Positions 22,253 through 45,092 of a stretch of 64,000 bases of DNA are shown piece by piece. The stretch's first letter is position 1; each line of letters begins with the position of its first letter. The translations under genes and the position numbers were made by a program. The DNA lies in NCBI RefSeq assembly GCF_024397855.1, contig NZ_CP073343.1:1736001-1800000 (forward strand), read 5' to 3'. Source of the DNA: Marinomonas rhizomae. Lineage in GTDB: Bacteria > Pseudomonadota > Gammaproteobacteria > Pseudomonadales > Marinomonadaceae. The notes under the pieces were generated by a model. The model made no database searches and had not been told where the DNA came from. It saw only the letters and a program-made list of their open reading frames with translations.

Positions 22253-22326
22253 AATATCAGATTTGGTCATACAAATATTCAGAAATACATTACTAAAAAG
22301 TAAGCTATATCAATAGTTTAACTTGT

Positions 22327-22403
<77 letters not shown>

Positions 22404-27610: not shown

Positions 27611-28717
27611 ATGCAGTTTTTCTTAAGAAAATTGATTCGTTATTACAGGTATAAAGTTGATAAAAGTTTGAACACAGAAGATGGCTATCAACAAAGCTTT
27701 TTGGCTGGTTTTTTTGGTTTGATGGGCTCCATCATTGCTTTTTTTACTGCATTAAATAGTTTCGTTATTCAGCTTTATAGTTTAGCTATCTGTTTGTTTT
27801 TAGTAAGCGCTTTATTGCTGCTATCTTTTCTTATACTCAAATCTTCTACATATAAGCGCTTTCATAATCTTTCGCGCTGTATAGCTCTGCTGGGATTATT
27901 TTCTTTAGGTCTTTATTTGATCCATTCTGGTGGGATCAATAACAGTGGTCCGCTATGGATTTATATCATTCCTTCGGTGACATTTGCATTCTTAGGTTTA
28001 AAGCTGGGCGTTATTGCGAATGGCGTCTTTTTTGTTCTTTCATCTATTTTGCTGTTTTTTCCAAGTGATGCTCTCTTGGCTACGACATATTCTTATGAAT
28101 TTAAAACGCGTTTGATGTATGTGTTTTTAACTATAGTCGCCTTATCTGGGGTTTATGAAGCGGCTCGTTATTACTCGTTTATGCGGCTAAAGTCGATGAA
28201 AGAGAAGTATGAACATCAAGCTCAGTTTGACTATTTAACACTTTTGCCAAATCGTCGGGGAATCCAAAAAATACTCAATAAAGAGCATCAGCAAAGAAAG
28301 CTTAGCAATAGCGTTTCAACGATAGCCACTTTGGATATTGATAAATTTAAAGCTATCAATGATGAGTTTGGTCACGAGATGGGGGATCTGGTGTTAAAGC
28401 ATGCGAGTAAAGTGCTGAGTGAATGTATCCGCTCGCAAGATTCATTAGCACGTTGGGGAGGTGAGGAGTTTCTACTTTTGCTTCCCGATACTCGTGAGGC
28501 AGACGCTATCGAATTGTTGGAATCGGTTCGTGAATGTGTAGAGAAAACACCGTTCGAACATGACACTATTAGTATTTCTATTACTCTAAGTATTGGGTTG
28601 TGTGAAACCTCACCCGATGTTGATTTTAATGAAACCATTAAGCTTTCAGATATCAGTTTATATCGTGCTAAACAGGCAGGACGGAACACTGTTTTTGCCT
28701 ATTCGTCAGCGCTTTAA
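27611..28717 (+). CDS. Membrane-bound diguanylate cyclase (GGDEF)
   Basis: The 368-residue protein has six hydrophobic segments in residues 30-190, a short linker helix, then a GGDEF domain (about 205-365) starting FDYLTLLPNRRG. The active-site loop is GGEEF (RWGGEEFLLLLPD), a functional variant, and metal and substrate residues are present (DIDKFKAINDEFGHEMGD). RSQD lies five residues before the loop and matches the RxxD inhibitory c-di-GMP site, so product feedback is expected. The sensor region is not a family I can name. It makes c-di-GMP at the inner membrane. The nearby LapA-type adhesin is a plausible, unproven output. Confidence 0.93.
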   Translation: MQFFLRKLIRYYRYKVDKSLNTEDGYQQSFLAGFFGLMGSIIAFFTALNSFVIQLYSLAICLFLVSALLLLSFLILKSSTYKRFHNLSRCIALLGLFSLGLYLIHSGGINNSGPLWIYIIPSVTFAFLGLKLGVIANGVFFVLSSILLFFPSDALLATTYSYEFKTRLMYVFLTIVALSGVYEAARYYSFMRLKSMKEKYEHQAQFDYLTLLPNRRGIQKILNKEHQQRKLSNSVSTIATLDIDKFKAINDEFGHEMGDLVLKHASKVLSECIRSQDSLARWGGEEFLLLLPDTREADAIELLESVRECVEKTPFEHDTISISITLSIGLCETSPDVDFNETIKLSDISLYRAKQAGRNTVFAYSSAL

Positions 28718-29174
28718 GATAGATTTTTAGGTGACACGTACGTCATCTACTTGCCTTTTGATTCTGCAAAAAACAAATCGCCTACGTCAATTGCCATTAA
28801 CCAAAATTTCTCAAGCCTTGCATCTCTCGACAGAGTTTTCTAAATGGAGATACTTGCGAATCAGACCAAGATGCCAAATATTAACCACCCCGCGTATTTC
28901 CTGCTTAGATTCATCGAAAGCGTTCTGTCATTACACGGTCACATTTTTGCGAAGCGGTGAGATTAAAGAAAAGAGTGATACTTCTATAGATGAACAGTAA
29001 TCTAAAGTCCTAAATTTCTTGTCACAGTGCTTTTTTTTAATTAGCTTGGAGCGCTATGAAAATGTGGGCCGTGGGGAGCGACTTACTGAAGTGATTAGTT
29101 TGCTAGCGGATAAATCAAAACAAACGCACACTCAGTGTGCAAAAAAACATCAGAAAGAACAGTATGGTGCAAAA
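28718..29174. other. Intergenic region upstream of the TetR/RutR-like gene
   Basis: An 89-codon open frame (28731-29000) and shorter ones exist, but none has a ribosome-binding site or recognisable sequence, and the longest is rich in rare-looking Arg/Ser/Thr codons. I do not call a gene. The TetR-type frame can be extended upstream to 29019, but that part has no family resemblance. Confidence 0.45.
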
Positions 29175-29804
29175 ATGACAAAGGTTACAAAAAGTGTAGA
29201 GAAAGTAAAATTAACCCGAGAGGAGATTCAAAAAAATATCCTTCAGGCGGCTATTTATGAATTTAGTCGACATGGTTTTATTGGTACTTCAACTCAGTCT
29301 ATTGCTGAACGGGCTGGCCTTAGAAAGTCTCAATTACACTATTACATTGTAGATAAAGAAGACCTTTATAATCAGGTGCTTAGTAAGCTTTTTAGAGCTT
29401 GGGGACGACTTTCTGAGCTGAAGAGCGACAGTCAAACACCCGCAGAAATATTAAAACATTACATCTATGTGAAATTACAGTTTGCTTTAAAATATCCTGA
29501 TTTATCAAGGGTATTTACGATGGAAATTTTATCTGGTGGTGAACGTTTAGCGCCATTTTGGCCAAGCGCCTTACATAACACTAAATTGAATGCTGAAGTA
29601 ATTAATAATTGGGTGCAGCAAGGAAAAATACGATCTTTGGATGGCCGTTTATTGATGATGAATATTTGGGCATTAACACAGTATTACGCAGATTACAGAA
29701 TCCAAGCAGAGCTAGTCATGTCGGCGTCTTTGGATGAATCTGATCTTCAAGACTGTTTAGTAAATGAAGTGACGACCCTTATTTTAAAGGGGTGTGGGCT
29801 TTAA
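29175..29804 (+). CDS. TetR/RutR-like transcriptional regulator
   Basis: From ATG 29175 the product has 209 residues: an N-terminal TetR helix-turn-helix (REEIQKNILQAAIYEFSRHGFIGTSTQSIAERAGLRKSQLHYY) and a C-terminal ligand domain like that of RutR (YVKLQFALKYPDLSRVFTMEILSGGERLAPFW). RutR binds uracil or thymine and controls pyrimidine degradation in E. coli. I place the start at 29175 because residues encoded upstream are not TetR-like. The gene directly precedes the co-directional heterocycle cluster, whose first start codon is covered by a TetR-like operator, so it most likely represses that cluster. Ligand unknown. Confidence 0.88.
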   Translation: MTKVTKSVEKVKLTREEIQKNILQAAIYEFSRHGFIGTSTQSIAERAGLRKSQLHYYIVDKEDLYNQVLSKLFRAWGRLSELKSDSQTPAEILKHYIYVKLQFALKYPDLSRVFTMEILSGGERLAPFWPSALHNTKLNAEVINNWVQQGKIRSLDGRLLMMNIWALTQYYADYRIQAELVMSASLDESDLQDCLVNEVTTLILKGCGL

Positions 29805-29915
29805 TTATTAATACGATTAAGCGTTTTTAGTACCCCTTCTTTTTTCATTTCCTATAAGGTTACTTATGCAATGATTCATTAAGAATAATGAATATTGGCA
29901 TACTAAATGCAAAGT

Positions 29916-29943
29916 TAGACCGATTGGACAAACCGGTTGGTTG
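29916..29943. promoter_or_regulatory. Candidate TetR-type operator in front of the heterocycle operon
   Basis: tagaccgattggacaa (29916-29931) is an imperfect dyad of the TAGACCGATCGGTCTA kind bound by many TetR repressors. A second half-overlapping match, accggttggt (29932-29941), follows at a 13-base offset. The pair ends just before the ATG at 29947, so a bound repressor would block transcription or initiation. Confidence 0.55.
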
Positions 29944-29946
29944 ATT

Positions 29947-30888
29947 ATGAGATTAGATGAAAGAATAAAAGTTAGAGTAAGTTGCCGTGAGTATTTAACA
30001 AAGGATATTGTTCTTTATAAGCTTGAGCCTTTAGAAGGTTTAAGTTTGCCTTCATTTTCTGCAGGCTCACACATTGAAGTGCACATCTCCGCACAATTTA
30101 CACGCGCTTATTCACTCTGCAGTGATCCAACTTTTGCTTCGACTCATTACTGTATTGCGGTCAAGATTGAAGACACTGGCCGTGGTGGCTCTAAGTCAAT
30201 GCATAATTCTGTGTTCGTGGGGACAGAACTTAGCATTAGTCCGCCAAAAAACTTTTTCCCATTGGCCGCTAGAGCCTCTCATCATTTATTAATAGCTGGT
30301 GGAATTGGCTTAACGCCTATGTTGTCGATGGCGTACAGCTTGCACGCTAAAGGTGAACCATTCACCTTGGTTGTCTGTGCTAGCTGCAGCGAAAAATTGC
30401 CATTCTTCGACATCTTGAATAACTCTCCTTGGCCTATCCATTACTTCTTAAATGGTCGTGAGTCTATTGATTTCACCACCATTTTGTCCTCACTGCCCGA
30501 TGATCCACATATATATTGTTGTGGGCCTGAGGGGCTGATGTCCATGGCCAAAAAGAACTGTGAAGTGTTGGCGCGAGCACATTGGCATGAGGAGAGGTTC
30601 GCAGCAGAGACCGGAGAAATAAAAAGTAATCAGTTTGAGTTGTATCTGAGTGAAAGCGATCAGCGTGTTGTTGTTGAAGAAAACATGACCATGATGAGCG
30701 CGCTGCGAAATGTTGGCATCCATGTTGAAAGTGTTTGTGAACAGGGAATCTGTGGAAGCTGTCTGGTGCGATGGCGTGATGGTAATCCTATTCACCGTGA
30801 TGAATGTCTGGAGCCTGACGAGCGAGATGAATACGTCGCTTTGTGTTGTGCTGGATGCAACTCCTCTAGTCTTACTTTGGAGCTTTGA
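29947..30888 (+). CDS. Phthalate dioxygenase reductase-like oxidoreductase (FMN/NAD/2Fe-2S)
   Basis: The 313-residue protein has the VanB/PDR order: flavin domain (about 1-105, FTRAYSLCSDP flavin-binding motif), NAD domain (about 106-225, LLIAGGIGLTPMLSMA and YCCGPEGLM), and a C-terminal plant-type ferredoxin domain with CEQGICGSCLVRW followed by a distal cysteine (ALCC). Such proteins pass electrons from NADH to a Rieske oxygenase, for example in aromatic demethylation. No oxygenase gene is present in the cluster, so its electron acceptor is unknown. ATG 29947 is chosen over a TTG at 29941. It is the first gene of the operon; the next begins two bases after its stop. Confidence 0.9.
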   Translation: MRLDERIKVRVSCREYLTKDIVLYKLEPLEGLSLPSFSAGSHIEVHISAQFTRAYSLCSDPTFASTHYCIAVKIEDTGRGGSKSMHNSVFVGTELSISPPKNFFPLAARASHHLLIAGGIGLTPMLSMAYSLHAKGEPFTLVVCASCSEKLPFFDILNNSPWPIHYFLNGRESIDFTTILSSLPDDPHIYCCGPEGLMSMAKKNCEVLARAHWHEERFAAETGEIKSNQFELYLSESDQRVVVEENMTMMSALRNVGIHVESVCEQGICGSCLVRWRDGNPIHRDECLEPDERDEYVALCCAGCNSSSLTLEL

Positions 30889-30890
30889 TT

Positions 30891-32192
30891 ATGGCACTGA
30901 CAAAGAATCAATACCTTACTTATGCAAGACTGCCAAAGTGGCTTTTACCTTCAGGCTGGCCAATGGAGGGAATGGCACCTGCTTTGGCGACTATTCACAT
31001 ATTTGAGGGAAAGGTTCATAGCGTAGTCCCTTCTGTGCAAGATGATTCTGGAACGAATTTGTCTGGGGGTCTCGTTTTACCTGGTTTGGTTGAAGCCCAC
31101 GCACATTTAGATAAAACCTTTACCGTACATCGTTTAGGTGAGTTGCAGCCGGGCTTGTTAAATGCCATTCAGGCAATGAAATCGGATCAAAAGAATTGGA
31201 CGTATGAAGATTTATTTAATCGAGCAGAACAAGCTTTAGAGCAAGCTTATCGAAATGGTGTCGTATTTTTACGTACTCATGTGGATTGGGTGTCTGAACA
31301 TACACCATTGGCATGGGAAGTATTCGGAGATTTAGCGAAAAAATGGCAGTCTCGTGTTCGTCTTCAAAGAGTGGCGCTTATTCCTCTTGGCTTGTTGGAA
31401 AATAAGGCATGGAGTCGGCAGATAGCTAACACCATTCGATTGTCTGATGACAGTCAAATGGGGGGCTTCATTCATAGTAGTAATTTTACTTACATTGGGT
31501 TAAAAAATTTAATTGAGGCGGTTTCCAACGAGAACTTGATTCTAGATCTTCATATTGATGAAGAACTCATTGATGAACCTCAAGGTTTACCCGCGTTATT
31601 AGACATTTTGGATGGGCAGAGCTTTCATTCCAGAATCGTTTGTGGGCATGTCTGCGCCTTAAGCTGTGCAGACGAATCCATTGCATTGAGATTATTGGAT
31701 CGAGTAGCAAAACACCCTATCACTTTAGTCACTCTTCCTGCGACAAATCTACTACTTCAAGACGCGAATACTGGAAGAACACCCCGAAATAGAGGCCTAA
31801 CGCTTGTTAATGAAGCGATGCAGCGAAACATTCCCACCATGGTCGCCACTGATAATGTTCAGGACGCTTTTTGTCATTTAGGCGAATACGACCCAGTCAA
31901 AGCCCTTCAGCTTGGAGTGTACAGCGGACATTTACAACATGCTTTTGATGTGTGGTCTCAATCGATTTGTCGATTTGATTGGTTGAACAGTGCGACAGAT
32001 AAAAATTTTAGTCTGGTAGGTAAAGAGGCTAATTTCGTCATTTTTGATACTAAGAACGTCTCAAGTTGGCCCAGTAATGTTACGCGATTAGTGATGCGAA
32101 AAGGTCAGTTCATAACTAATACATCCATTTTTCATAGTCGTTTTGATACCCATTTCAATGATCAAGATAAAGAGGTTAATGATGAAAGATAA
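30891..32192 (+). CDS. Cytosine deaminase-like amidohydrolase (CodA/AtzC type)
   Basis: The 433-residue product belongs to the amidohydrolase superfamily. HAHLDKTF (His70, His72) gives the first metal ligands, DLHIDEE and CGHVCALS the next histidines, and ATDNVQDAF the catalytic Asp, an arrangement seen in cytosine deaminase and N-isopropylammelide hydrolase. Those enzymes hydrolyse exocyclic amino groups from N-heterocycles in the cytosol; creatinine deaminase activity is also known in CodA relatives. Cytosine itself is not certain as substrate. The start ATG lies directly after the reductase stop (TGATTATGG), and its end overlaps the Rid gene by 11 bases, so translation is coupled. Confidence 0.88.
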   Translation: MALTKNQYLTYARLPKWLLPSGWPMEGMAPALATIHIFEGKVHSVVPSVQDDSGTNLSGGLVLPGLVEAHAHLDKTFTVHRLGELQPGLLNAIQAMKSDQKNWTYEDLFNRAEQALEQAYRNGVVFLRTHVDWVSEHTPLAWEVFGDLAKKWQSRVRLQRVALIPLGLLENKAWSRQIANTIRLSDDSQMGGFIHSSNFTYIGLKNLIEAVSNENLILDLHIDEELIDEPQGLPALLDILDGQSFHSRIVCGHVCALSCADESIALRLLDRVAKHPITLVTLPATNLLLQDANTGRTPRNRGLTLVNEAMQRNIPTMVATDNVQDAFCHLGEYDPVKALQLGVYSGHLQHAFDVWSQSICRFDWLNSATDKNFSLVGKEANFVIFDTKNVSSWPSNVTRLVMRKGQFITNTSIFHSRFDTHFNDQDKEVNDER

Positions 32193-32643
32193 AGCAGAAT
32201 CAGCCGGTGGTGCGCCATTGGCAAAATATGCAGCCAGTAAGCGAGTAGGGGACTTTGTGTTTCTTTCCGGTGTGATTGCAGTAGATCCAAAAGCACAAGT
32301 TATTGTGAATGGATTTGATGACATTCCAGCTGAAGCGGCTGACTTGATTGGTCGTACAGGTGAGTTTTCTACGGATTTCAAACAGGGGCCGATTTTGGCA
32401 CAAAGCTGGTATGTGCTCAATGCGATTAACGAGCACATGATCCGTGAAGGAGGAAGCATCAAGGATGTATTTAAATTGGTTCAGTATTTTAAAAATCTAG
32501 ATCATTTTCCTTATTACAGCCAAGTTCGTAAACACTTTTTTTTGGATGAATTACCCATTTCTACCGTTGTTGAAGTGAGTGGCATGTTGCCAAGCAAAGA
32601 GATGTTGATCGAAGTAGAAGCTACGGCTTATTTACCCATTTAA
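32182..32643 (+). CDS. Rid-family (YjgF/YER057c/UK114) protein lacking the RidA arginine
   Basis: The 153-residue protein has the chorismate-mutase-like fold of the Rid family (GDFVFLSGVIAVDP, QSWYVLNAINEHMIREGG, VEVSGMLPSKEMLIEVEATAYL). RidA enzymes hydrolyse reactive enamine/imine products, using an Arg in the PARTxVEV-like motif; here that motif reads PISTVVEV, so the Arg is replaced. It is therefore outside the RidA subfamily and may be a pathway-specific deaminase, like RutC or 2-aminomuconate deaminase relatives. The start at 32182 is chosen from two adjacent ATGs because AAAGAGG then lies at ideal distance. It overlaps the amidohydrolase gene. Confidence 0.87.
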   Translation: MKDKAESAGGAPLAKYAASKRVGDFVFLSGVIAVDPKAQVIVNGFDDIPAEAADLIGRTGEFSTDFKQGPILAQSWYVLNAINEHMIREGGSIKDVFKLVQYFKNLDHFPYYSQVRKHFFLDELPISTVVEVSGMLPSKEMLIEVEATAYLPI

Positions 32644-32685
32644 AGAACGAAAGCTATATAGCAGGTTAATAAACAGAGGTGTCTT

Positions 32686-33534
32686 ATGTTACACGGATTT
32701 ACTCCAAAAGAGCGTTTTTTACCCTATTTGAGTTGGGTTGATATAGACGCACTAGAAGACAAAGAAAATATTGTGATTGTTTTGCCAGTAGGGGCTATTG
32801 AGCAGCACGGGCCGCATCTTCCATGTTCTGTTGATGCCACTGTTGCTGCTGGGGTGGCCGGAAAAGCGCTATCACTTTTACCTAACAGCATCCCTGCTTA
32901 CGGTATACCTCCCATTATCTATGGTAAGTCAGATGAGCATATTCATTTCCCTGGGACAATAACCTTGAATGGAGAGACGCTTCTGCACATGGTGCAAGAA
33001 ATAGGAGAGTCTGTTTATCGTGCAGGGTTTAGAAAATTACTCATGGTCAATGCGCATGGCGGTCAGCCTCAACCTTTGGAAATGGCCGCTCGGGAGCTGC
33101 GCTTGCGTCATGGTGATTATATGGTGATTGCCCGTTCTGCATGGAGTGTGGCCCATGATAGTAGTTTCTTTTCAGATAAAGAGAAGCAGCTGTCTATGCA
33201 CGCAGGGCACGGTGAGACTGCCATCATGATGGCATTGGATCCAGACTCAGTGAAGATGGAAAGAGCCGAAGCAAGTTATCCGCCCCCATTCCCGTGTCCG
33301 ACGTTAACCACTGGAAGACCTGCTGCGGCATGGGCTAGTTATGATTTTGGCCCTACTGGCGTGATTGGTGATCCTACTAAGGCGACTTTGGAGCAGGGCC
33401 AACAATTGTTAGCGCAATTAGGAGAGCAGTGGGCGCAGGCAATCACTGAAATCTATCAAGCAGATTGGATTAAGCGCCAAGAAGTTTCTTGGGGCCGAGG
33501 CCATTATCAAGGTCATATTGAGAGTCGAAAGTAA
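32686..33534 (+). CDS. Creatininase-family amidohydrolase
   Basis: The 282-residue protein has creatininase-family metal ligands: PVGAIEQHGPHLP (Glu39, His41), Asp50 in CSVDAT, His124 in VNAHGGQ, and Glu177 in HAGHGETA. True creatininase carries a His-x-Glu at the NGHYEN position; here it is NAHGGQ, closer to other family branches such as formamide hydrolases (ArfB) and MftE. The reaction is thus probably hydrolysis of a cyclic or linear amide other than creatinine. It sits between the Rid protein and the importer and is likely a ring-opening or deformylating step in the same pathway. Confidence 0.87.
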   Translation: MLHGFTPKERFLPYLSWVDIDALEDKENIVIVLPVGAIEQHGPHLPCSVDATVAAGVAGKALSLLPNSIPAYGIPPIIYGKSDEHIHFPGTITLNGETLLHMVQEIGESVYRAGFRKLLMVNAHGGQPQPLEMAARELRLRHGDYMVIARSAWSVAHDSSFFSDKEKQLSMHAGHGETAIMMALDPDSVKMERAEASYPPPFPCPTLTTGRPAAAWASYDFGPTGVIGDPTKATLEQGQQLLAQLGEQWAQAITEIYQADWIKRQEVSWGRGHYQGHIESRK

Positions 33535-33579
33535 GATCATTTTTTATTGTGTTATCAAGCATGAAATCAGGAGAGAACC

Positions 33580-34587
33580 ATGAGTTTATATGAGATAAGT
33601 AAGAAATCTGTTTCTAATGTACTTTCTGTTGCCGCGCTAGTATCTACCTCTATCTGCACGACAAATGTGATGGCAGCGCCGACGAAGTTTACCTTTATAA
33701 CCAATTGGTATGCTCAAGCTGAACATGGTGGATATTATCAGGCTCTTGCTGAGGGATTTTATAAAGAGGCAGGCCTTGATATGACGATTCGTATGGGTGG
33801 TCCGCAAGTCAATAACCTACAACTGCTTGCAGCCGGTAAAGCCCAGTGTGCGATTGTTGATGATATTGGCGTGATGATGGCTCAGAAAAGAGGCATTCCG
33901 GTAAAAATGGTCGCGACAAGCTTCCAGTTTGATCCAACGGTTGTTATCACCCACAGTGATATTGATACATTAGAAGATCTGAAAGGGCACACTGTACTTA
34001 TTGCTAGCAGTTCACAATCGAGCTGGTGGCCATGGGCAAAGAAAAAATATGGCTTCACTGACGCTATGACCCGCCCTTATACCTTTAATATTCAGCCATT
34101 TATGCTTGATAAAACCGTTGCCCAACAAGGTTATATGACCTCTGAACCTTATGCCATGCAAGAAGCAGGGGCAGACTTTAAAAGCTTCCTGATTGGTAAA
34201 GAAGGTTACCCACCTTATGGAAATTCGATTGCTTGTCGGACTGAGGTTATTGAGCAGCACCCAGAAGAAATAAAAGCTTTGATTTACGCTTCTATGCAGG
34301 GATGGAAATCGTATTTGGCTTCTCCAGCTAAAGGTAATGAGTTAATCATAAAAGATAACCCTAATATGACAGAAGACCGAATTGCATACGCGGTGAACTT
34401 ATTAAATAGCTCTGGAATCGTAACGGGTGGCGATGCTCAAACCAAAGGGATTGGATATATCAGCGACAGCCGGATGAAAAAAACCTGGGATATGGCGGTT
34501 GAAAATAATCTGTTTAGTGCTTCAGAAGTAACACTTTCAGACGTTTATACCACTGAATTTGTTGATGCAGTGAGAGTGATGCCATGA
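33580..34587 (+). CDS. ABC transporter substrate-binding protein (NMT1/THI5-SsuA type)
   Basis: The 335-residue protein begins with a signal peptide (about residues 1-32, cut near VMAA-PT) and continues with the NMT1/THI5-like binding fold (FTFITNWYAQAEHGGYYQALAEGFYKEAGLDMTIRMGG). This family includes binding proteins for thiamine pyrimidines, sulfonates, taurine and riboflavin. Together with the heterocycle enzymes encoded before it, a pyrimidine-like ligand is the best guess. GGAGAG precedes the ATG. Its end overlaps the ATPase gene by four bases. Confidence 0.9.
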   Translation: MSLYEISKKSVSNVLSVAALVSTSICTTNVMAAPTKFTFITNWYAQAEHGGYYQALAEGFYKEAGLDMTIRMGGPQVNNLQLLAAGKAQCAIVDDIGVMMAQKRGIPVKMVATSFQFDPTVVITHSDIDTLEDLKGHTVLIASSSQSSWWPWAKKKYGFTDAMTRPYTFNIQPFMLDKTVAQQGYMTSEPYAMQEAGADFKSFLIGKEGYPPYGNSIACRTEVIEQHPEEIKALIYASMQGWKSYLASPAKGNELIIKDNPNMTEDRIAYAVNLLNSSGIVTGGDAQTKGIGYISDSRMKKTWDMAVENNLFSASEVTLSDVYTTEFVDAVRVMP

Positions 34588-35435
34588 GTATAAATGCAGC
34601 CATCAGAGCATTTGATCATTCAGAGCAAATGCTTGAGGAGCATCCACAAAATCATGGCGCCGCTCCCGCCATTGAATTGTTATCTACCGATAAAGTTTAT
34701 AACAATGGAACTAGAGCTTTATTGCCAGTGGATTTGAAAATCAAACAAGGGGAGTTTGTCACCTTATTGGGGCCTTCTGGGTGTGGAAAAAGTACCTTGC
34801 TAAAAATGGTGGCAGGTCTTGAAGAACCGAGTGATGGTCGACTTTTGTTATGGCGAAAACCTATCAATCAGCTGGCTAATAATGGCCGTACTTTGTCTTT
34901 TGTTTTTCAGGAAGCCTCTTTGATGGCTTGGCATAGCGTACGAAAGAATGTTCGTCTTGCTCTTGAGTTAGAAGGGGTTAAAGGTAAAGAGGCGGATGAG
35001 CGGGTTGAAAAAGTACTTAAGCTGGTTGGATTAGAAAAATTTTCTGAAGCGTTACCGAAGGAGCTTTCTGGAGGTATGCAAATGAGGGTTTCTATTGCAA
35101 GGGGTCTGGTTATTAAACCAGATCTCTTGTTAATGGATGAGCCTTTTGGTGCTTTGGATGAAATTACCCGTTATAAATTGGACAGTGATTTGTTGGACCT
35201 TTGGCAACAGAATGGCTTGACCGTTATTTTTGTCACACATTCTATCCATGAAGCCGTTTTTTTATCTCAGCGTGTCATTGTGATGGCAGCCAGACCAGGA
35301 CGAGTCGTTGCAGATATAAAAATCGAAGAGCCTTTTCCTCGCAAAGCAGAATTTCGTATGCAGCCGCGCTTCACGGAATACGCCATGCAATTACATGATT
35401 GCTTGGTGAGCGCTTCAGCGGAGGATGAGCTATGA
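34584..35435 (+). CDS. ABC transporter ATP-binding protein (SsuB/TauB/ThiZ type)
   Basis: The 283-residue protein has Walker A GPSGCGKSTLL, Q-loop FVFQEASLMAW, signature LSGGMQMRVSIARGL, Walker B LLLMDEPFGALDE and the H-loop VTHSIHEAVFLSQRV. A roughly 30-residue N-terminal extension precedes the core. It energises import with the binding protein and permease encoded on either side. Start and stop both overlap neighbours by four bases (ATGA), showing tight coupling. Confidence 0.94.
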   Translation: MSINAAIRAFDHSEQMLEEHPQNHGAAPAIELLSTDKVYNNGTRALLPVDLKIKQGEFVTLLGPSGCGKSTLLKMVAGLEEPSDGRLLLWRKPINQLANNGRTLSFVFQEASLMAWHSVRKNVRLALELEGVKGKEADERVEKVLKLVGLEKFSEALPKELSGGMQMRVSIARGLVIKPDLLLMDEPFGALDEITRYKLDSDLLDLWQQNGLTVIFVTHSIHEAVFLSQRVIVMAARPGRVVADIKIEEPFPRKAEFRMQPRFTEYAMQLHDCLVSASAEDEL

Positions 35436-36247
35436 ATAATACTATAGAGCCAAATCCAAAACGCCCTTGGTTGTCTCATCCGAGAATTCGTAAGGTTATT
35501 GTGCCTGCGGCAATTGCCGTGATTTTGTTACTACTATGGCAAGCTGTGGTGACCGCTGGAAAAGTCCCAGAATATATTTTTCCGTCCCCTTTGGTCACTC
35601 TTAATACTTTGTATGAGGATTGGGGGTTATTAGGGCCATCCTTGTTGTTTACTTTGAAAATTACTTTACTGTCGTTTTTGATGGCGACGGTGGTTGGTTG
35701 TGTTATTGCATTTTTATTTGTTCAAAGTCGAGCGATAGAAACGGCCTTTTTCCCCTATGCGGTTTTGTTGCAGGTCACTCCAATTGTTGCTATAGCGCCA
35801 TTAATCATTATTTGGATCGACAGCACAGTATTAGCCTTGGTTGTTTGTTCAACATTGGTGGCTTTATTCCCCATTATCTCTAATACCACTTTGGGTTTGA
35901 GGAGTGTCTCACCAAATCTACTGGCGTATTTTAAATTACGTCAAGCGAGTCGATTACAGGTCCTCTGGCGGCTGCGTATTCCTTCTGCATTACCGTATTT
36001 TTTTGCTGCATTAAAAATTGCCAGTGGATTGTCTTTGGTAGGGGCTGTGGTTGCTGAATTCGTGGCTGGAACAGGAGGAAGTAACACAGGATTGGCTTAT
36101 CAAATATTACAATCCGGTTATCAGCTAAATATCCCTCGTATGTTTGCGGCCTTGATTTTGATTTCGTTAACTGGGGTCGTGTTGTTTATGGCTATGTCTA
36201 TTTTGTCTAAGCTGGCAATAGGACATTGGCATGAAAGTGAAAACTAA
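35432..36247 (+). CDS. ABC transporter permease (SsuC/TauC/ThiX type)
   Basis: The 271-residue inner-membrane protein has about six membrane segments and the BPD_transp_1 EAA-like loop (LRSVSPNLLAYFKLRQASRLQVLWRLRIPSALPYFFAAL). It completes an SsuABC/ThiXYZ-like importer. The start overlaps the ATPase stop by four bases. Confidence 0.93.
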   Translation: MNNTIEPNPKRPWLSHPRIRKVIVPAAIAVILLLLWQAVVTAGKVPEYIFPSPLVTLNTLYEDWGLLGPSLLFTLKITLLSFLMATVVGCVIAFLFVQSRAIETAFFPYAVLLQVTPIVAIAPLIIIWIDSTVLALVVCSTLVALFPIISNTTLGLRSVSPNLLAYFKLRQASRLQVLWRLRIPSALPYFFAALKIASGLSLVGAVVAEFVAGTGGSNTGLAYQILQSGYQLNIPRMFAALILISLTGVVLFMAMSILSKLAIGHWHESEN

Positions 36248-36306
36248 CCTCTCAGTTTGAAACGACGTCTTGTTTGATTTTACTATGATTAATGTGAGTT
36301 TTTCCA

Positions 36307-37653
36307 ATGACTACAATTGAAAGTACCCAAGAATTACAACGTACACTACCGGAGCTGAATTGGCTGACATCGCCTATTCATATTAAGCGACTATCAAAAG
36401 ACTTTTACTGGTTTAGCCCGCTTTTGAAAGCGCAATTAGCCGACAAAAAGGCCGATTTAGTTGTACGTCCTCGCAGTGAAGAAGAATTGACACAACTTAT
36501 TTGTGAAACCGTTCGTTTAAATATCCCAGTTACTGTTCGTGGTGGTGGAACGGGTAACTATGGTCAATCCGTACCTTTAAATGGCGGTGTCATTATTGAT
36601 ATGACAGATTTTAATCAGCTCAACTGGATAAAAGACGGTGTTGCAAGTGTTCGACCTGGTATGAAGCTTGGCAGCCTAGAAGAATCCGCTCGAGAATCTG
36701 GCTGGGAGCTACGCTGTATGCCATCGACGTATAAAATGGCGACGGTGGGTGGCTTATTTTCAGGCGGCTTCGGTGGCATTGGATCTATTAATTATGGACC
36801 CGTTTCGGCTTCAGGAAATGTGCTCGGTGCACGTGTAATGACACTAGAAAACCCACCTAGAATCATAGCGCTGCGAGGGTATGAAACCCTTAATTTCCAT
36901 CATACATACGGCACTAATGGTATTCTGGTTGAGTTAGAGGTAGCGCTTGCGCCTGCGAGACAGTGGGACGAATATATGCTGGCTTTTGCGGATTTAAGCC
37001 ATGCTGTTAACTTTGCTAAATCAATGACCAACAGTGTTGCCATTGATAAACGAAATATCGCTGTGTTTGATGCTCAAAGTGCCGCGCATTTTTCCGAAGC
37101 CAGTGAAAATTTGAAAGCTGGCGAGCATTTGGTCATTGCCATAGTTTCGTCAAATTCAAAAGAGCCCATGTTAGAGTTGTTGGAAGAAAAACATGGCCGT
37201 GTTGCCTGGTGTCAGACTGCCGCGGATATGCAACAAAACCAACATACTTTGATGGAATATTGTTGGAATCATTCAACCTTGCATGCTCTTAAAAAAGACG
37301 ATTCTTTAACGTATTTGCAAGCGAATTACCAAGCAGACAAACTGCTAGAGCAATTGGCTGGTATTCGAGAGCAAGTGGGCGATGAGGTCGGTGTTCATTT
37401 GGAGTTTATTCGAAGCGCGGACTCTTCGCTTTTTGTAACAGGTTTGCCACTTGTCCATTATTCATCTTCAGAACGACTAATGGAGCTGATTTCTATTCAT
37501 CAAAGTTTAGGAATAAAAATCAATAATCCACATGTTTATACTCTGGAAGATGGTAAGCATGGTGGCTGCTTAAGTGACGAAATTTTAACGAGCAAAAAGC
37601 AAAACGACCCTCACTCGTTATTGAACGTGGGGAAAGTTCGCAGCTTGTGTTAA
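36307..37653 (+). CDS. FAD-binding oxidoreductase (PCMH/GlcD-like)
   Basis: The 448-residue protein has a PCMH-type FAD domain (about residues 45-225): VRPRSEEELTQLICETVRLNIPVTVRGGGTGNYGQSVPLNGGVIIDM, with the RGGGTGNYGQ pyrophosphate loop, and ATVGGLFSGGFGGIGSINYG. The C-terminal substrate half is not diagnostic. It belongs to the glycolate oxidase/D-lactate dehydrogenase-like flavoproteins that oxidise alcohols, hydroxy acids or heterocycles. No secretion signal is seen, so it is cytosolic. It follows the importer permease after 59 bases in the same operon, suggesting oxidation of the imported compound or a breakdown product. Confidence 0.87.
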   Translation: MTTIESTQELQRTLPELNWLTSPIHIKRLSKDFYWFSPLLKAQLADKKADLVVRPRSEEELTQLICETVRLNIPVTVRGGGTGNYGQSVPLNGGVIIDMTDFNQLNWIKDGVASVRPGMKLGSLEESARESGWELRCMPSTYKMATVGGLFSGGFGGIGSINYGPVSASGNVLGARVMTLENPPRIIALRGYETLNFHHTYGTNGILVELEVALAPARQWDEYMLAFADLSHAVNFAKSMTNSVAIDKRNIAVFDAQSAAHFSEASENLKAGEHLVIAIVSSNSKEPMLELLEEKHGRVAWCQTAADMQQNQHTLMEYCWNHSTLHALKKDDSLTYLQANYQADKLLEQLAGIREQVGDEVGVHLEFIRSADSSLFVTGLPLVHYSSSERLMELISIHQSLGIKINNPHVYTLEDGKHGGCLSDEILTSKKQNDPHSLLNVGKVRSLC

Positions 37654-37714
37654 ATGAAACAAAAAGCATTTAAGATTACAAAACTGTTTTATCACATCAT
37701 AAGGATAAGGTCTG

Positions 37715-38203
37715 ATGAGTCATTTAAGAACAATCAAAATCGTGTTAGTCGGCTGTGTTGCTCTGTTCGCAGGCTTGGTGGCTTTTAATAACGTTGTGGA
37801 TTATGGGTCTAACTTTGCGTTTGTTCAGCATGTTTTAACCATGGATACGACGTTTGAATGGAATGAACTTAAATATCGAGCTGTCAACGAGCCTGCTCTG
37901 CATCATGGATTCTACTGGTTAATTATCTTGGTTGAAGCTTTAGTCGGTCTTTTTTGTGCATTAGGCGCATGGCAGATGTGGCAAAAGAGAAAACTGGATA
38001 AAAAGCAATTTAATGCCGCAAAAACATTGGCAAATTTTGGTTTAGCTCTTGGGGTGTTGCTTTGGTTTACTGGGTTTATGACCATTGGTGCTGAATGGTT
38101 CTTAATGTGGCAGTCGCAGATTTGGAACGGTCAAGCTTCTGCATTTCGCTTTATTGTTGTGTTATTTTTAGTGCTTATTTTTATTAATCAAGTTGAAGAA
38201 TAG
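37715..38203 (+). CDS. DUF2165-family small membrane protein
   Basis: The 162-residue protein has four hydrophobic segments and a conserved-looking loop (NNVVDYGSNFAFVQHVLTMDTTF), with GAEWFLMWQSQIWNGQASAFRF near the C-terminus, both characteristic of DUF2165. Function is unknown. It is the last gene before a strong terminator and is 61 bases past the oxidase, so it appears to belong to the heterocycle operon. A preceding AAGGATAAGG supports the start. Confidence 0.85.
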   Translation: MSHLRTIKIVLVGCVALFAGLVAFNNVVDYGSNFAFVQHVLTMDTTFEWNELKYRAVNEPALHHGFYWLIILVEALVGLFCALGAWQMWQKRKLDKKQFNAAKTLANFGLALGVLLWFTGFMTIGAEWFLMWQSQIWNGQASAFRFIVVLFLVLIFINQVEE

Positions 38204-38252
38204 TCTGCATAAACGCTTAACTTATAAATAAAATGCTTATATGTTTTATCGA

Positions 38253-38287
38253 AGCCCTTTGGATGGATGTTCAAAGGGCTTTTTTTG
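38253..38287 (+). terminator. Rho-independent terminator of the heterocycle operon
   Basis: The 9-bp stem AGCCCTTTG / CAAAGGGCT with a 10-base loop runs straight into seven T residues. It separates the operon ending with the DUF2165 gene from xylF. Confidence 0.92.
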
Positions 38288-38403
38288 TAAAAACGCTAAA
38301 CCGAAACAAAAAAAGATAATACCGTTCGATAAACCATCGATTTACATTCGTCTAACTCCATTAGGAGATCGTTCACTTCATAAAAATAATAAGGAATGAA
38401 AAG

Positions 38404-39405
38404 ATGAAAAAAATCGTTTCTATGAGTTTGTTGGCAACCCTCTGTGCGGCAACGTCTCTTCCTGCTTTAGCAGACGGCGAAAAGATTGGTTTGTTAATGT
38501 CTGACTTACGTCTAGAGCGCTGGCAGAAAGACCGAGACTTATTTACCTCAGCGGCGGAAGCCATGGGGGCAAAAGTCTATACCCAATCTGCAAACGGTGA
38601 TGTCACCACTCAAATATCCCAAATCGAAAACATGATTTCTCGAGGTGTTGATGTGCTGGTTATCGTGCCTGAAAACGGTGAAGTGTTAGGCAATGTGTTG
38701 GCCGAAGCCAAAGCGGAAGGCATCAAAGTCTTGGCTTATGACCGATTAATCAAATTTGCAGATATCGATTTGTATGTATCTTTTGACAACATTCGTGTTG
38801 GTGAAATGCAAGCCGAAGCCTTGTTGAAGCGTAAACCAACAGGCAATTATTTCCTAATGGGCGGATCGCCTACCGATAACAATGCGAAGATGTTCCGTCA
38901 GGGGCAAATGAACGTTCTTCAACCAGCCATTGATTCTAAAAAAATTAAAGTGGTGGGTGACCAATGGGCTATGGGCTGGTCTGCAGAAGCGGCATTGAAC
39001 ATCATGGAAAACGGCCTAACGGCGAACGCCAATAAAATCGATGCGGTGGTTGCTTCCAATGACTCGACGGCGGGTGGCGCAGTACAAGCGCTAGCGGCTC
39101 AAGGCTTGAGTGGTAAAGTGGTTATTTCTGGTCAAGATGCAGACCTTGCCGCAATGCGTCGTATTGTCGCGGGCACCCAAACCATGACGGTGTACAAACC
39201 GATTTCTAAACTGGCGACAACCAGTGCGGAAATGGCCGTAAAATTGGCCCGTGGTGAAAGTATCAAGGTGAATGGCTCTGTTAACAACGGCAAAAAAGAT
39301 GTCGATGCCGTGTTGTTAACGCCTATTTCGGTCAATAAAGATAACCTAGACTCCACCGTTATTGCCGATGGTTATCACTCACGTAGCTCTGTTTACAACC
39401 CTTAG
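38404..39405 (+). CDS. xylF: D-xylose ABC transporter substrate-binding protein XylF
   Basis: The 333-residue periplasmic protein has a signal peptide (MKKIVSMSLLATLCAATSLPALA, cut before DGEK) and the XylF type I binding fold (KIGLLMSDLRLERWQKDRDLF, VLAYDRLIKFADIDLYVSFDN, VVASNDSTAGGAVQALAAQG, ISGQDADLAA). It captures D-xylose for the XylGH channel. AAGGAATGAAAAG precedes the ATG. It heads the xylFGHB operon after the upstream terminator, and a hairpin after its stop may keep its mRNA more abundant than the membrane parts. Confidence 0.95.
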   Translation: MKKIVSMSLLATLCAATSLPALADGEKIGLLMSDLRLERWQKDRDLFTSAAEAMGAKVYTQSANGDVTTQISQIENMISRGVDVLVIVPENGEVLGNVLAEAKAEGIKVLAYDRLIKFADIDLYVSFDNIRVGEMQAEALLKRKPTGNYFLMGGSPTDNNAKMFRQGQMNVLQPAIDSKKIKVVGDQWAMGWSAEAALNIMENGLTANANKIDAVVASNDSTAGGAVQALAAQGLSGKVVISGQDADLAAMRRIVAGTQTMTVYKPISKLATTSAEMAVKLARGESIKVNGSVNNGKKDVDAVLLTPISVNKDNLDSTVIADGYHSRSSVYNP

Positions 39406-39417
39406 TTCATTCCTATA

Positions 39418-39443
39418 AACAGCACCTGAAAAAGGGTGCTGTT
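39418..39443 (+). terminator. Intercistronic hairpin after xylF
   Basis: A 9-bp stem AACAGCACC / GGTGCTGTT is followed by TGCTTTT. Such weak terminators or mRNA-stabilising hairpins after binding-protein genes raise the ratio of binding protein to membrane components. Confidence 0.6.
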
Positions 39444-39485
39444 TGCTTTTCTGGTTTAAAAAAAGATGTAGAAAGAGGCGTAAAC

Positions 39486-41015
39486 ATGAAGCAACCCTTA
39501 TTGGACATGCGTGGGATTGTAAAAAGTTTCTCCGGTGTCCGTGCATTAAATGGCGTCAGCATTCAGCTTGAACCTGGTGAAGCCTTATCCATTTGTGGCG
39601 AGAATGGCTCAGGCAAATCAACCTTGATGAAGGTGCTGAGCGGCGTTTGGCCATTTGGTTCTTACGAAGGTGAAATTTACTTTGAAGGGAGTCTTGTTAA
39701 AGCATCCAGCATTCGAGATACCGAAGCGCTAGGGATCGTCATTATTCACCAAGAATTGGCGCTTGTTAAAGAAATGACTGTCTTAGAAAATATCTTTCTG
39801 GGTAATGAGCTTGGTTCGTTTGCGAGGCTGAATGACGAAGAAATGCACCGTCGTACGTCGGAATTGTTGGCGCGAGTCAAATTGGATATTTTACCGGATA
39901 CGCCAATCCGAGAGCTTGGTGTGGGCCAGCAGCAATTGGTCGAAATCGCCAAAGCGTTAAACAAAAACGTGAAGCTATTGATATTAGACGAACCGACATC
40001 TTCTCTGACCACCACAGAAATCGAAATCCTATTGAATATCGTCAGCGAGCTGAAACAGCAGGGCATCGCTTGCATTTACATTTCCCATAAATTGGAAGAA
40101 GTATTGGCTTTATCCAATTGGGTCACGGTTATTCGTGATGGTGACCATATAGACACCCGACCTGTCGATAATCTAACGCAAAACGACATTATCAGCATGA
40201 TGGTTGGGCGCGAACTGGATGAGCTTTTCCCACGTGAAGAGCACGATATTGGTGACGTCGTATTGAAGGTAAATCATGCGACAGCGAAGCAAGCCGGTGC
40301 CTCGCGAGCACAGGTAGACGATGTTAGTTTCGAATTGCGTCAGGGCGAAATTCTAGGTATCGCCGGTTTGATTGGGTCAGGTCGAACGGAGCTGATGCAA
40401 TGTTTGTACGGGTCTTACGACGGACATTACGAAGCGAACATTGAATTGCATGATAAATCTTTAACAATTCGTTCTCAGCGCACAGCGCTGGAAGCGGGCA
40501 TTGCTATGGTGCCGGAAGACCGAAAACGCCACGGTATTGTGCCTATTATGAGTGTTGGACGGAACATTACCTTGTCGGTTTTGAAGCAATACTCTTCTTG
40601 GTTTGGCGCAGTGAATGAAGATAAAGAAAGCCAAGATATTGACCGTTATATTGCCCAGCTGAAAGTAAAAACCGCGTCTTCTGAATTGTCTATTAAAAAT
40701 CTGAGTGGTGGTAATCAACAAAAAGCCATCATCGCCAAATGTTTATTAACGCATCCAAAGATCTTGATACTAGACGAACCGACTCGTGGCATTGATGTGG
40801 GCGCGAAATACGAAATTTATAAGCTGATGTTCGCGCTCGTCAAGCAGGGAATGTCGATCATCATGGTGTCGTCTGAATTATCCGAAGTGATTGGTATCAG
40901 TGACCGAGTCTTGGTGATGCACGAAGGACGCTTGAAAGGGCAATTTGACCATCAAGGTTTGACCCAAGAAATGATTATGAATTGCGCGATCAAAGAAGGT
41001 GTAGCAAATGTTTAA
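39486..41015 (+). CDS. xylG: D-xylose ABC transporter ATP-binding protein XylG
   Basis: The 509-residue protein has two fused ABC ATPase domains. The first has Walker [12 protein letters not shown] and Walker [12 protein letters not shown]; the second has a degenerate P-loop ([11 protein letters not shown]), signature [14 protein letters not shown] and [13 protein letters not shown], as usual in monosaccharide-type transporters. It powers xylose import with XylH. AGAAAGAGGCG precedes the ATG. The end overlaps xylH by eight bases. Confidence 0.95.
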
Positions 41016-42138
41016 AACAATTAAAACCAGTCAATTACAACTGTTTGCGATGTTAGCGGCGATGCTGCTGATTGTCGTCTTCTTTTCTATCGCGACCGAT
41101 GGAGCGTTTATTTCGCCACGGAATATTTCGAACTTGATTCGTCAAACAGCCATTGTGGGCGTGCTTGCTATTGGCATGGTGTTTGTCATCATCAGCGCCG
41201 AAATCGATTTGTCGGTTGGTTCTATGATGGGCTTGTTGGGCGGGATTGCGGCGATTCTGGATGTTTGGTTTCACTTTCCTATTATGCTCACCGTTTTAAT
41301 CACGGTCGCTTCGGGTTTGGTGTTGGGCTTGTTTAACGGCTGGTGGGTTGCCTATCAAAAAGTGCCGTCTTTTATTGTCACCTTGGCAGGCATGCTGGCG
41401 TTTCGTGGCATTTTGGTTGGGTTAACCGACGGGGCAACGGTTGCGCCTACGTCTAGTTCTCTGGCGATTGTTGGGCAAAGTTACATTCCGTCTGGTTGGG
41501 GGATCAGCGTTGTGTCCTTGTTGTGCCTTGGTTTGGTGGCAAAAGTTTATGCTCGACGTAAAGCAAGACAAAAGCACGGAGTGGAAAACCAGTCGGCTAA
41601 GTTTGAATACGCCAAAGCAACGATTGCTGTTGCCGTGTTGATGGGCTTGTTGTTTATCTTGGAAAGTTATCGCGGTATTCCAACGCCAATCTTGATCATG
41701 GGCGGGCTGATTCTAATCGCCACCTATGTAGCAAAACGAACATCGTTTGGTCGTCGAATTTACGCTATCGGTGGCAACATCGAAGCGACTCGCATGTCAG
41801 GTGTTAATGTTGAACGTACCAAAATGTTGGTGTTTGGTTTCAATGGCATGATGGTCGCGGTGGCTGCGCTAATACTTACATCTCGACTGGGTGCTGGCTC
41901 TCCTGCGGCGGGAAATATGGCTGAACTGGATGCCATCGCAGCCTGTGTTATTGGCGGCGCCAGTTTGGCTGGCGGTGTTGGTGCGGTATTTGGTGCCATT
42001 ATGGGCGCACTGATTATGGCGAGCTTGGACAATGGCATGAGCATGTTGGATGTGCCTACGTTTTGGCAACTAATCGTTAAAGGCATGATTTTGTTGCTTG
42101 CCGTTTGGCTGGACGTGAAAACCAAAAAATCGCAGTAA
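41008..42138 (+). CDS. xylH: D-xylose ABC transporter permease XylH
   Basis: The 376-residue inner-membrane protein has about ten hydrophobic segments and the RbsC/XylH-type conserved loop ([33 protein letters not shown]) and [27 protein letters not shown]. The long middle linker ([20 protein letters not shown]) is typical of XylH. It overlaps xylG, so both are translated together. Confidence 0.94.
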
Positions 42139-42177
42139 ACAGCATTTCATCAAGTCGAATTTATTTATAGGTATTGT

Positions 42178-43626
42178 ATGTATATCGGTATAGATCTCGG
42201 AACGTCTGGCGTTAAAGTAATTCTCATGGATGAAAACGGACGCGTTGCGGCAAGCTGTTCGTCGCCTCTTTCTGTGTCGCGTCCTTTTGACCTTTGGTCG
42301 GAGCAAAACCCAGAAGACTGGTGGCAAGCAACTGACTTAGCAATGTTGCAGCTTGCTTCAGAGCATAATCTGCAAGGCGTGAAAGCCATAGGTTTATCTG
42401 GGCAAATGCATGGTGCGACCTTGCTTGGTAAGCAGGGTGAAGTATTGCGTCCGGCTATCCTTTGGAATGATGGCCGCTCCCACGAAGAATGCTTGTCATT
42501 GCAACGACGCTGTCCAGAAGTACAAGCTATTACGGGGAACCTAGTTATGCCAGGTTTTACCGCGCCTAAGTTACTTTGGGTGAAGCAACATGAGCCAGAG
42601 GTATTTGCACAAATCGACAAGGTGCTGTTACCAAAAGACTACCTGCGCTTTCGCATGACAGGGGATTTCGCAACCGATGTGTCAGACGCCTCAGGAACGC
42701 TTTGGTTGAACATGGAGCAACGCGCTTGGAGCGAGACCATGTTGCAAGCAACAGGCTTAAACGAACAGCAAATGCCAAAGGTATATGAAGGCTCAGAAAT
42801 CACCGGCACGATCGACGAGGTGTTGGCAAAACGTTGGTCTTTGCCAGTTATACCAGTGGTCGCGGGCGGTGGTGATAACGCCGCTGGCGCAGTCGGCATG
42901 GGCATTATTTCATCTACACAAACTATGCTATCACTTGGCACCTCAGGGGTGATTTTTGCGGTAAGTGATGGCTTTACAGCGAACCCTTCTGCTGCCTTGC
43001 ACAGTTTTGGTCATGCGGTTCCGAATACTTGGCACACTATGTCGGTGATGTTGAGTTCCGCGAGTTGCATTGATTGGGTCACGAAATTGGCACAATTTAG
43101 CAGTGTGGAGCTGGCTTTATTGGCGGCCGAGAATCGTATGGATCACGATAGTAAGCTTACTTTTTTGCCTTATCTAAGCGGAGAAAGAACACCGCATAAC
43201 GATGCCAATGCAAAAGGTGTTTTTTGGGGGATGACCCACGAAACGACGCCAGCGGATTTGGTTCATGCTGTGCTTGAAGGAGTGAGCTTTGCCTTGCTGG
43301 ATGGATTGGATGCGGTGCGCTCGGCACAAAGTATCAGCGAAGGAATAGACGTGATTGGTGGCGGAGCCAAAAGTACCTATTGGTTACAAATGTTAGCTGA
43401 TGTCTTTAATGTGCCAATGGATTACCGTGCAGGTGGTGAAGTTGGGCCTGCTTTGGGGGCGGCTCGATTAGCCGCTATTGGCGATCAAGGCCAAGGCGCG
43501 CTAAACGAAATTTGTACCAAGCCAGCGCTCATTAAACGTTATTTGCCTAATCAAGAAAATAGCGCTTGGTATACAGAGAAACGCAGGCGCTTTCAGGAGT
43601 TATACCAAAGAGTAAAAGGCTTGTAA
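42178..43626 (+). CDS. xylB: Xylulokinase XylB
   Basis: The 482-residue FGGY-family kinase begins MYIGIDLGTSGVKVILMDE and carries SGQMHGATLLG, an ATP-site Gly-rich motif (GGGDNAAGAVGMG) and a C-terminal VIGGGAKSTYWLQMLADVFNVP. It phosphorylates D-xylulose, made by XylA, to xylulose 5-phosphate in the cytosol. It follows xylH by 39 bases and ends the operon. Size is as expected for XylB. Confidence 0.95.
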   Translation: MYIGIDLGTSGVKVILMDENGRVAASCSSPLSVSRPFDLWSEQNPEDWWQATDLAMLQLASEHNLQGVKAIGLSGQMHGATLLGKQGEVLRPAILWNDGRSHEECLSLQRRCPEVQAITGNLVMPGFTAPKLLWVKQHEPEVFAQIDKVLLPKDYLRFRMTGDFATDVSDASGTLWLNMEQRAWSETMLQATGLNEQQMPKVYEGSEITGTIDEVLAKRWSLPVIPVVAGGGDNAAGAVGMGIISSTQTMLSLGTSGVIFAVSDGFTANPSAALHSFGHAVPNTWHTMSVMLSSASCIDWVTKLAQFSSVELALLAAENRMDHDSKLTFLPYLSGERTPHNDANAKGVFWGMTHETTPADLVHAVLEGVSFALLDGLDAVRSAQSISEGIDVIGGGAKSTYWLQMLADVFNVPMDYRAGGEVGPALGAARLAAIGDQGQGALNEICTKPALIKRYLPNQENSAWYTEKRRRFQELYQRVKGL

Positions 43627-43631
43627 TAAGC

Positions 43632-43659
43632 AAGAGCGGTGCAGCAATACGCCGCTCTT
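43632..43659 (+). terminator. Hairpin after xylB
   Basis: An 8-bp stem AAGAGCGG / CCGCTCTT with a 12-base loop lies a few bases past the xylB stop. No T-run follows, so it may be a Rho-dependent or processing hairpin rather than a full terminator. Confidence 0.45.
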
Positions 43660-43780
43660 ATTGCCAACTTTCTTTCATTACGATTTCTGTTATTTCCCTT
43701 CTGATTTTTATCATTACCTAGAACCTGCAATATCAACAAGAGTATGATCAAGTAATAATAAAAATTAGAGATGCTGTTGT

Positions 43781-44962: not shown

Positions 44963-45092
44963 GAGCTATTTTTCAAAAAATAGTGCCCAGTAAGATAGGT
45001 AAATCAAACATTATAAAAAACTCTTGATGCATTTTTATAATGTCGTTAAGTATACTTCCTGCAATAGTATTGAATTCTACGCCGTTTTTTTG

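Follow-up and report, generated by a model that had tools for sequence, protein, structure and literature searches.

We analysed a 64-kb stretch of the Marinomonas rhizomae genome (contig NZ_CP073343.1, positions 1,736,001 to 1,800,000), hereafter the window, and matched the ten gene products encoded between 29175 and 38203 to Pfam and NCBIfam. A RutR-like TetR-family regulator gene precedes an operon for a reductase, a CodA-like amidohydrolase, a Rid protein, a creatininase-family hydrolase, an ABC importer, a flavoprotein of the VAO fold (FADox) and a DUF2165 protein (Table 1). As argued below, this operon probably handles a pterin, the type of ring that the vitamin folate contains.

A sequence-only reading had described these genes in this order and with overlaps, and we confirmed every part, all on the plus strand, by a Pfam match above its gathering score. 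The importer genes for the binding protein, ATPase and permease thus stand together with those for the amidohydrolase, flavoprotein, reductase, creatininase-family protein and Rid protein, which form the complete cluster. Overlaps of 4 nt occur at three junctions, the Rid gene overlaps the amidohydrolase gene, the remaining gaps measure 42-61 nt, and 142 nt separate tetR from the reductase gene, the first of the operon. The same reading placed a terminator at the end of the operon. We found there a hairpin with a T tail, 5 of its 14 pairs being G-C, which tops the list of a terminator scan that was overall not significant (13 sites in the region versus 9.0, standard deviation 2.8, in shuffles).

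Table 1. Features of the operon and of related sites elsewhere in the source genome (2OG, 2-oxoglutarate; SBP, substrate-binding protein)
Feature	Position	Strand	Evidence or remark
RutR-like TetR-family regulator (TetR_C_3/TetR_N)	29175..29804	+	PF08362, 107.9 bits
RutR-box-like operator candidate TAGACCGATTGGACAA between tetR and operon	29916..29931	.	11/14 RutR consensus positions
VanB/PDR-type reductase, C-terminal 2Fe-2S domain	29947..30888	+	Fer2 and NAD_binding_1
CodA-like amidohydrolase	30885..32192	+	Amidohydro_3; NCBIfam PRK07583, 271.3 bits
Rid (YjgF) family protein (Ribonuc_L-PSP)	32179..32643	+	PF01042; start taken at ATG 32179
Creatininase-family metal hydrolase	32686..33534	+	PF02633, 238 bits
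NMT1/THI5-type periplasmic binding protein (SBP)	33580..34587	+	PF09084
ABC importer ATPase	34584..35435	+	PF00005
ABC importer permease (BPD)	35432..36247	+	PF00528
VAO-fold flavoprotein (FADox; FAD_binding_4)	36307..37653	+	Pfam
DUF2165 small membrane protein, accessory	37715..38203	+	PF09933
Intrinsic terminator-like hairpin at operon end	38251..38282	+	14 pairs, 4-nt loop, T tail
Divergent PRK12393 amidohydrolase and NMT1 SBP	L041:9549-12477 (source genome ~3987.5-3990.5 kb)		own riboswitch each
TadA-like deaminase and riboswitch-linked 2OG oxygenase	L117:808-17906 (source genome ~2594.8-2611.9 kb)		

Conservation of the cluster

A scan of named genomes with FADox gave 24 loci, one each from Marinomonas sp. 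UCMA 3892, an Oceanospirillaceae metagenome-assembled genome (MAG) and an unassigned MAG, and 21 from Enterobacterales (Pantoea, Rahnella, Raoultella and Serratia among them). We used tblastn to count the parts in the stretch fetched for each locus. The amidohydrolase and the creatininase-family protein were each found at 23 of the 24 loci, the Rid protein and each of the three importer parts at 22, and the reductase at 20; the unassigned MAG (L024) and Enterobacter sp. JUb54 (L025) carry incomplete sets.

In a draw of 398 genomes across the phylum, FADox was present in 32 at a threshold of E <= 1e-50. We counted the parts within about 10 kb at 28 FADox loci of this draw and found the amidohydrolase at 25, the creatininase-family protein at 24, the Rid protein at 22, the reductase at 21, and the SBP, ATPase and permease at 24, 23 and 23, respectively. 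Some gene calls at high-GC loci are naive longest open reading frames (ORFs); the counts were made by tblastn. They represent 29 of the 36 places at which the flavoprotein occurs outside the source genome, and several of the loci end early at contig ends. At 20 comparison loci lacking FADox, which were chosen for a deaminase, a riboswitch or a Rieske oxygenase, two of them overlapping, and are not a random background, the amidohydrolase occurred once, the SBP, ATPase and permease 6, 7 and 9 times, and the creatininase-family protein, Rid protein and reductase not at all. Conserved synteny, which the sequence-only reading had named as a check, is therefore strong (25/28, 24/28 and 22/28 for amidohydrolase, creatininase-family and Rid proteins). 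DUF2165, found at 0 of the 28 and 1 of the 24 loci, was rejected as a core part of the cluster on these counts.

The same set lies on annotated plasmids of Rhizobium (L055, L056), of roseobacters (L087, with no reductase annotated, and L088) and of a Comamonadaceae strain (L029). Since FADox is rare in the genus Marinomonas (2 of 48 genomes), our data suggest that the operon was acquired there as a unit. We also observed that molybdenum hydroxylase genes, candidates for a pterin hydroxylase, adjoin the cluster together with XdhC in Rhizobium johnstonii 3841 (L055:899-5680).

Enzymes and regulator of the operon

The closest solved relative of FADox, PDB 6V42/6V43, is titled as a flavin oxygenase of folate catabolism, and the VAO fold of FADox matches 6V42 over its full length and above other VAO enzymes. 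We predict on this basis that FADox is a flavin oxygenase of pterin/folate catabolism. Given the title of 6V42, its oxygenase has already been studied, which makes our cluster a variant of a folate/pterin catabolic cluster that is known in part; 14 of our loci lie near 6V42, 13 of them complete clusters. The window copy differs from 6V42/6V43 in belonging to a more distant branch, in its VanB-type rather than FMN-type reductase, and in the accompanying RutR-like TetR gene and DUF2165. The operon had been called undescribed by the sequence-only reading. Neither a description of the cluster nor a paper on 6V42 turned up in a literature search of titles and abstract starts that left most subscription journals uncovered, which is in line with that claim, but the solved flavoprotein and its folate-catabolism title restrict it.

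The reductase is of the VanB type in the window and at 18 of the 21 Enterobacterales loci, and a flavodoxin-fold NAD(P)H/FMN reductase is found at 20 of the 28 phylum-draw loci. The VanB/PDR-type reductase is the putative electron donor of the operon and, because an FMN-type reductase replaces it elsewhere, the flavoprotein is a likelier acceptor than a Rieske oxygenase. We considered and dropped a Rieske partner in the source genome: of its two Rieske oxygenases, one adjoins a reductase gene of its own, as judged by eye, and the second resembles the first, with no reductase gene showing in that part of the ORF list which was read by eye.

The amidohydrolase stays below the NCBIfam PRK07583 cut-off for cytosine deaminase (271.3 bits against 403). 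It retains the metal and catalytic positions of CodA (H72, H74, H223, E226, H255 and D323), but two CodA substrate contacts, Q156 and W319, are changed. In the alignment to 4R7W, FPQEG stands opposite LIPLG (Q opposite P) and DPWYPLG opposite DAFCHLG; 4R7W itself has S in place of a third contact, D314, which is hence uninformative, and F329 of the amidohydrolase is invariant among 30 relatives. From its sequence, the protein would be a deaminase of a 2-amino-4-oxo pteridine-type ring; guanine has the 2-amino-4-oxo ring in common with pterins. An amidohydrolase encoded on pADP-1 after the atz transporter genes (L028:12947-14278) is 43% identical to it, and AtzT, the binding protein of that transporter, binds guanine with a dissociation constant (Kd) of ~110 nM (PMC6834077).

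The creatininase-family protein belongs to superfamily PF02633 and falls short of the equivalog TIGR04448 (110.4 bits, cut-off 235); its residues E39, H41, D50, H124 and E177 are invariant in 8 copies, and we regard it as a probable cyclic-amide hydrolase. The Rid protein has 3LYB as closest solved relative (202 bits) and lies under the cut-offs of both TIGR00004 (RidA; 47.4 bits against 106.25) and RutC (31 against 169.1). The active-site Arg of RidA-type deaminases is Arg105 in E. coli RidA. In an alignment made without RidA itself, the stretch expected to hold this residue reads PISTVVEV, and the canonical Arg motif is absent.

The TetR protein scores 135.5 bits against the NCBIfam RutR model, under its cut-off of 368. 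The operator candidate was scored against a RutR consensus of 14 positions, and 5 sites in the window, the candidate included, score at least as high. Locus L002 carries the same box and L003 has TTGACCGATCGGTCAA (12/14) at the same place; in the stretches tested of the TetR-bearing loci L029, L069, L087 and L088, the best box reached only 8-10/14. A TetR-type gene accompanies the roseobacter and Comamonadaceae sets as it does the window operon, and a LysR gene the Rhizobium and most enterobacterial copies examined. The parallel with the E. coli Rut pathway drawn by the sequence-only reading is thus a loose one: a RutR-like regulator and a Rid protein of the RutC superfamily are shared, but both miss the equivalog cut-offs. 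That reading also noted that the enzymes differ from those of Rut; our Pfam scan of the ten products found no RutA monooxygenase, RutB hydrolase or RutG type, and the operon has an ABC importer instead.

Links to pterin deaminases and the xanthine riboswitch

In Klebsiella, Rahnella and other genera, a LysR gene, a second NMT1-type SBP, an amidohydrolase and a 2OG-Fe(II) oxygenase are encoded divergently from the operon. This neighbouring amidohydrolase scores 673-676 bits against PDB 2PAJ, an enzyme reported to act on two pterins but on none of the purines assayed. We take 2PAJ to be the isoxanthopterin deaminase of Hall et al. 2010. The Sargasso Sea enzymes from that work are described in PMC5270733 as deaminating isoxanthopterin and pterin-6-carboxylate. 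The annotation of a Paracoccaceae plasmid gives the name isoxanthopterin deaminase to a related gene. A 2PAJ-type gene lies within the fetched stretch at 17 of the 21 Enterobacterales loci and somewhere in the genome in 18, if a broken copy and a split copy are included; the remaining three genomes lack it. Thus, a close relative of 2PAJ/PRK12393 adjoins enterobacterial copies of the operon, and the source genome encodes a PRK12393 member above the cut-off (653.6 bits against 543), but the enzyme is not part of the window operon, whose amidohydrolase belongs to another, CodA-like subfamily.

Pterin-ring deamination by a hydrolase is also described for the pterin deaminase of the folate-degrading Variovorax sp. 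F1, studied together with carboxypeptidase G. The same source mentions, downstream of a relative of the F1 deaminase in Variovorax paradoxus, a gene for an 'endoribonuclease' that may be a Rid protein (PMC9513972). Relatives of FADox are frequent in Variovorax. In lineages other than that of the source genome, the gene for a Rieske oxygenase is found next to that for the 2PAJ-type deaminase. Beside the flavoprotein and a 2PAJ-type deaminase, we noted isochorismatase-type hydrolase genes (L085:11689-12480, L071:10836-11651), possibly for a later ureide-cleaving step. In Caballeronia (L102), a 2PAJ-type deaminase gene stands in a different setting, next to UbiD/UbiX and a nucleobase symporter.

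The neighbouring genes of Enterobacterales carry the xanthine (NMT1) riboswitch RF03054 at both loci scanned (L032, L013). It was also found at the deaminase units L089, L090, L091, L096 and L100, and not at L092 and L097. Its ligands are given as xanthine and uric acid, with an OFF response, and its gene partners as NMT1 SBPs, 2OG and Rieske oxygenases and PRK12393 amidohydrolases; isoxanthopterin is listed among the compounds purchased for the ligand test (PMC7373994). These gene types adjoin the operon in Enterobacterales and sit elsewhere in the source genome, where we found three RF03054 matches over the cut-off. One lies beside a 2OG oxygenase gene that is 61% identical to that of Klebsiella, and two lie in the interval from which the genes for the PRK12393 amidohydrolase and an NMT1 SBP diverge. 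The window operon differs from the published regulon in having no riboswitch, and the word 'creatininase' is absent from the main text of PMC7373994.

A tree built from 26 binding proteins puts the window SBP into a 100/99 clade with 19 members, which comprises the full set of 12 cluster SBPs and seven SBPs of deaminase units, six of the seven lying behind a xanthine riboswitch. Among the 398 genomes (FADox in 32, 2PAJ-type deaminase in 11, riboswitch in 17), FADox co-occurs with the riboswitch in 6 (1.4 expected, p 0.001; 0.005 without the source genome) and with the deaminase in 4 (0.9 expected, p 0.008; 0.04 without the source genome), and the deaminase with the riboswitch in 8 (0.5 expected, p 3e-10), p-values that are optimistic since genomes were treated as independent despite their kinship.

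A candidate pterin route and its rivals

Considering all the above results, we think it likely that the operon serves the inducible import and breakdown of an oxidised pterin or lumazine of the kind set free from folate and related pterins. Gene content, packing, conservation and the sequence and fold relationships were observed directly, and the enzyme steps are deduced from them. A pterin would be taken up by the NMT1-type ABC importer and lose its 2-amino group to the CodA-like amidohydrolase. The deaminated ring would then be oxygenated by the flavoprotein, with electrons from the co-encoded reductase, and the resulting cyclic amide opened by the creatininase-family hydrolase, after which the Rid protein may deal with an unstable enamine, imine or tautomer. 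Until it binds the heterocycle, the RutR-like TetR protein would keep the operon repressed by way of the box that precedes the reductase gene. In Enterobacterales, the adjoining riboswitch-controlled unit, with its SBP, isoxanthopterin-deaminase-type amidohydrolase and 2OG oxygenase, may supply the same route; the source genome has comparable genes elsewhere.

Several observations weigh against this proposal. FADox is only 37-40% identical to 6V42, whose assignment to folate catabolism rests on the title of the PDB entry. The 2PAJ-type deaminase is absent from the window, and the nearest copy in the source genome is 44-46% identical and 2.2 Mb away. This deaminase (L041) occurs in 12 of 48 Marinomonas genomes as against 2 of 48 for the operon flavoprotein, which makes it a weak candidate for a specific partner of the operon, and 6 of 9 genomes with a deaminase of at least 50% identity have no FADox. 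RF03054 gave no match at the operon (28600-38500, E up to 5) nor in 17 other stretches with cluster genes, three of which hold a 2PAJ-type gene (L002, L003, L029, L055, L056, L063, L067, L068, L070, L072-L074, L085, L087, L088, L092 and L097). Moreover, the NMT1 SBPs at the riboswitch sites of the source genome (L041, L108) fall outside the clade of the window SBP, contrary to a simple one-regulon picture. Finally, the kinship of the sampled genomes tempers the co-occurrence statistics, and the published riboswitch ligands favour purines.

Because of these ligands, the main rival is the breakdown of an oxidised purine (8-oxoguanine, guanine or a product of damaged guanine), with the riboswitch link as purine feedback. 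Xanthine and uric acid are the ligands of the riboswitch that accompanies the enterobacterial copies, and the genes under its control have been assigned to purine oxidation (PMC7373994). Guanine is the ligand of AtzT, whose gene stands beside that of a related amidohydrolase, and relatives of 2PAJ are similar to 8-oxoguanine deaminases. However, the closest solved flavoprotein carries a folate-catabolism title, and urate needs no second route since the source genome already has proteins that exceed the cut-offs for HpxO, hydroxyisourate hydrolase and OHCU decarboxylase, encoded ~13 kb from the TadA-like deaminase and riboswitch-linked oxygenase genes of L117. We therefore consider a purine substrate unlikely.

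The sequence-only reading had proposed uptake and breakdown of a nitrogen heterocycle, which our analysis supports, with modified pyrimidines, hydantoins or creatinine-like compounds as substrates, where the evidence turns instead to pterins and lumazines. Rut-like degradation of such compounds would fit the RutR-like regulator and box, the Rid protein and the CodA-like and creatininase-family enzymes; yet the RutR, RutC, creatininase and PRK07583 cut-offs are all missed, two CodA substrate contacts are altered, no RutA/RutB-type protein is encoded and the relatives of the cluster indicate pterins, so that we find this option very improbable. Hardly any weight falls on salvage or detoxification of a thiamine-pyrimidine-like compound via a ThiXYZ-type importer: the NMT1/THI5-like SBP matches the formyl-aminopyrimidine binding protein 3IX1 (36 bits) and THI5 chains, but these matches are weak, no thiamine gene is found among the ten genes, and riboswitch-linked NMT1 genes are described as separate from those of thiamine metabolism (PMC7373994).

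The pterin proposal could be extended, in a version to which we give a small chance, to one widespread pterin-degrading route formed by the cluster together with the xanthine (NMT1) riboswitch units. The riboswitch would then report the end of pterin breakdown by sensing a lumazine-type product, which would carry the 2,4-dioxo face of xanthine, or a xanthine arising from contraction of the pteridine ring. EC 5.5.1.3 is an old orphan reaction in which tetrahydroxypteridine is converted to xanthine-8-carboxylate by ring contraction. If this extension were true, some enzyme of the operon would fill the EC 5.5.1.3 gap, and pterins would be the true target of many regulons now ascribed to purine oxidation.

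Other features of the window lie on both sides of the operon. Directly downstream lies a xylose-type region (38404-52713), judged by eye to hold a XylFGH-like ABC importer, a xylulokinase-like protein, a XylR-like regulator, a second sugar ABC importer and a XylA-like isomerase, and farther on, on the minus strand (55360-58232), a TRAP-type large membrane protein and a TAXI-like binding protein, also by eye. Upstream, a very large repeat gene region (6001-20731), by eye a giant secreted adhesin, ends in a repeat-bearing ORF of 1936 aa and has a G+C of ~0.60 with strong AT skew over 6001-14000; it is followed by four tRNA genes whose scores are equal in pairs (21790-22400).

Folate and other pterins are produced by most organisms, and bacterial pterin breakdown past the first deamination is poorly charted; the Variovorax study follows it to deaminopteroic acid (PMC9513972). 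With its importer, oxygenase, deaminase and hydrolase, the cluster makes a pterin route directly testable, and it gives an alternative reading of many xanthine-riboswitch operons.

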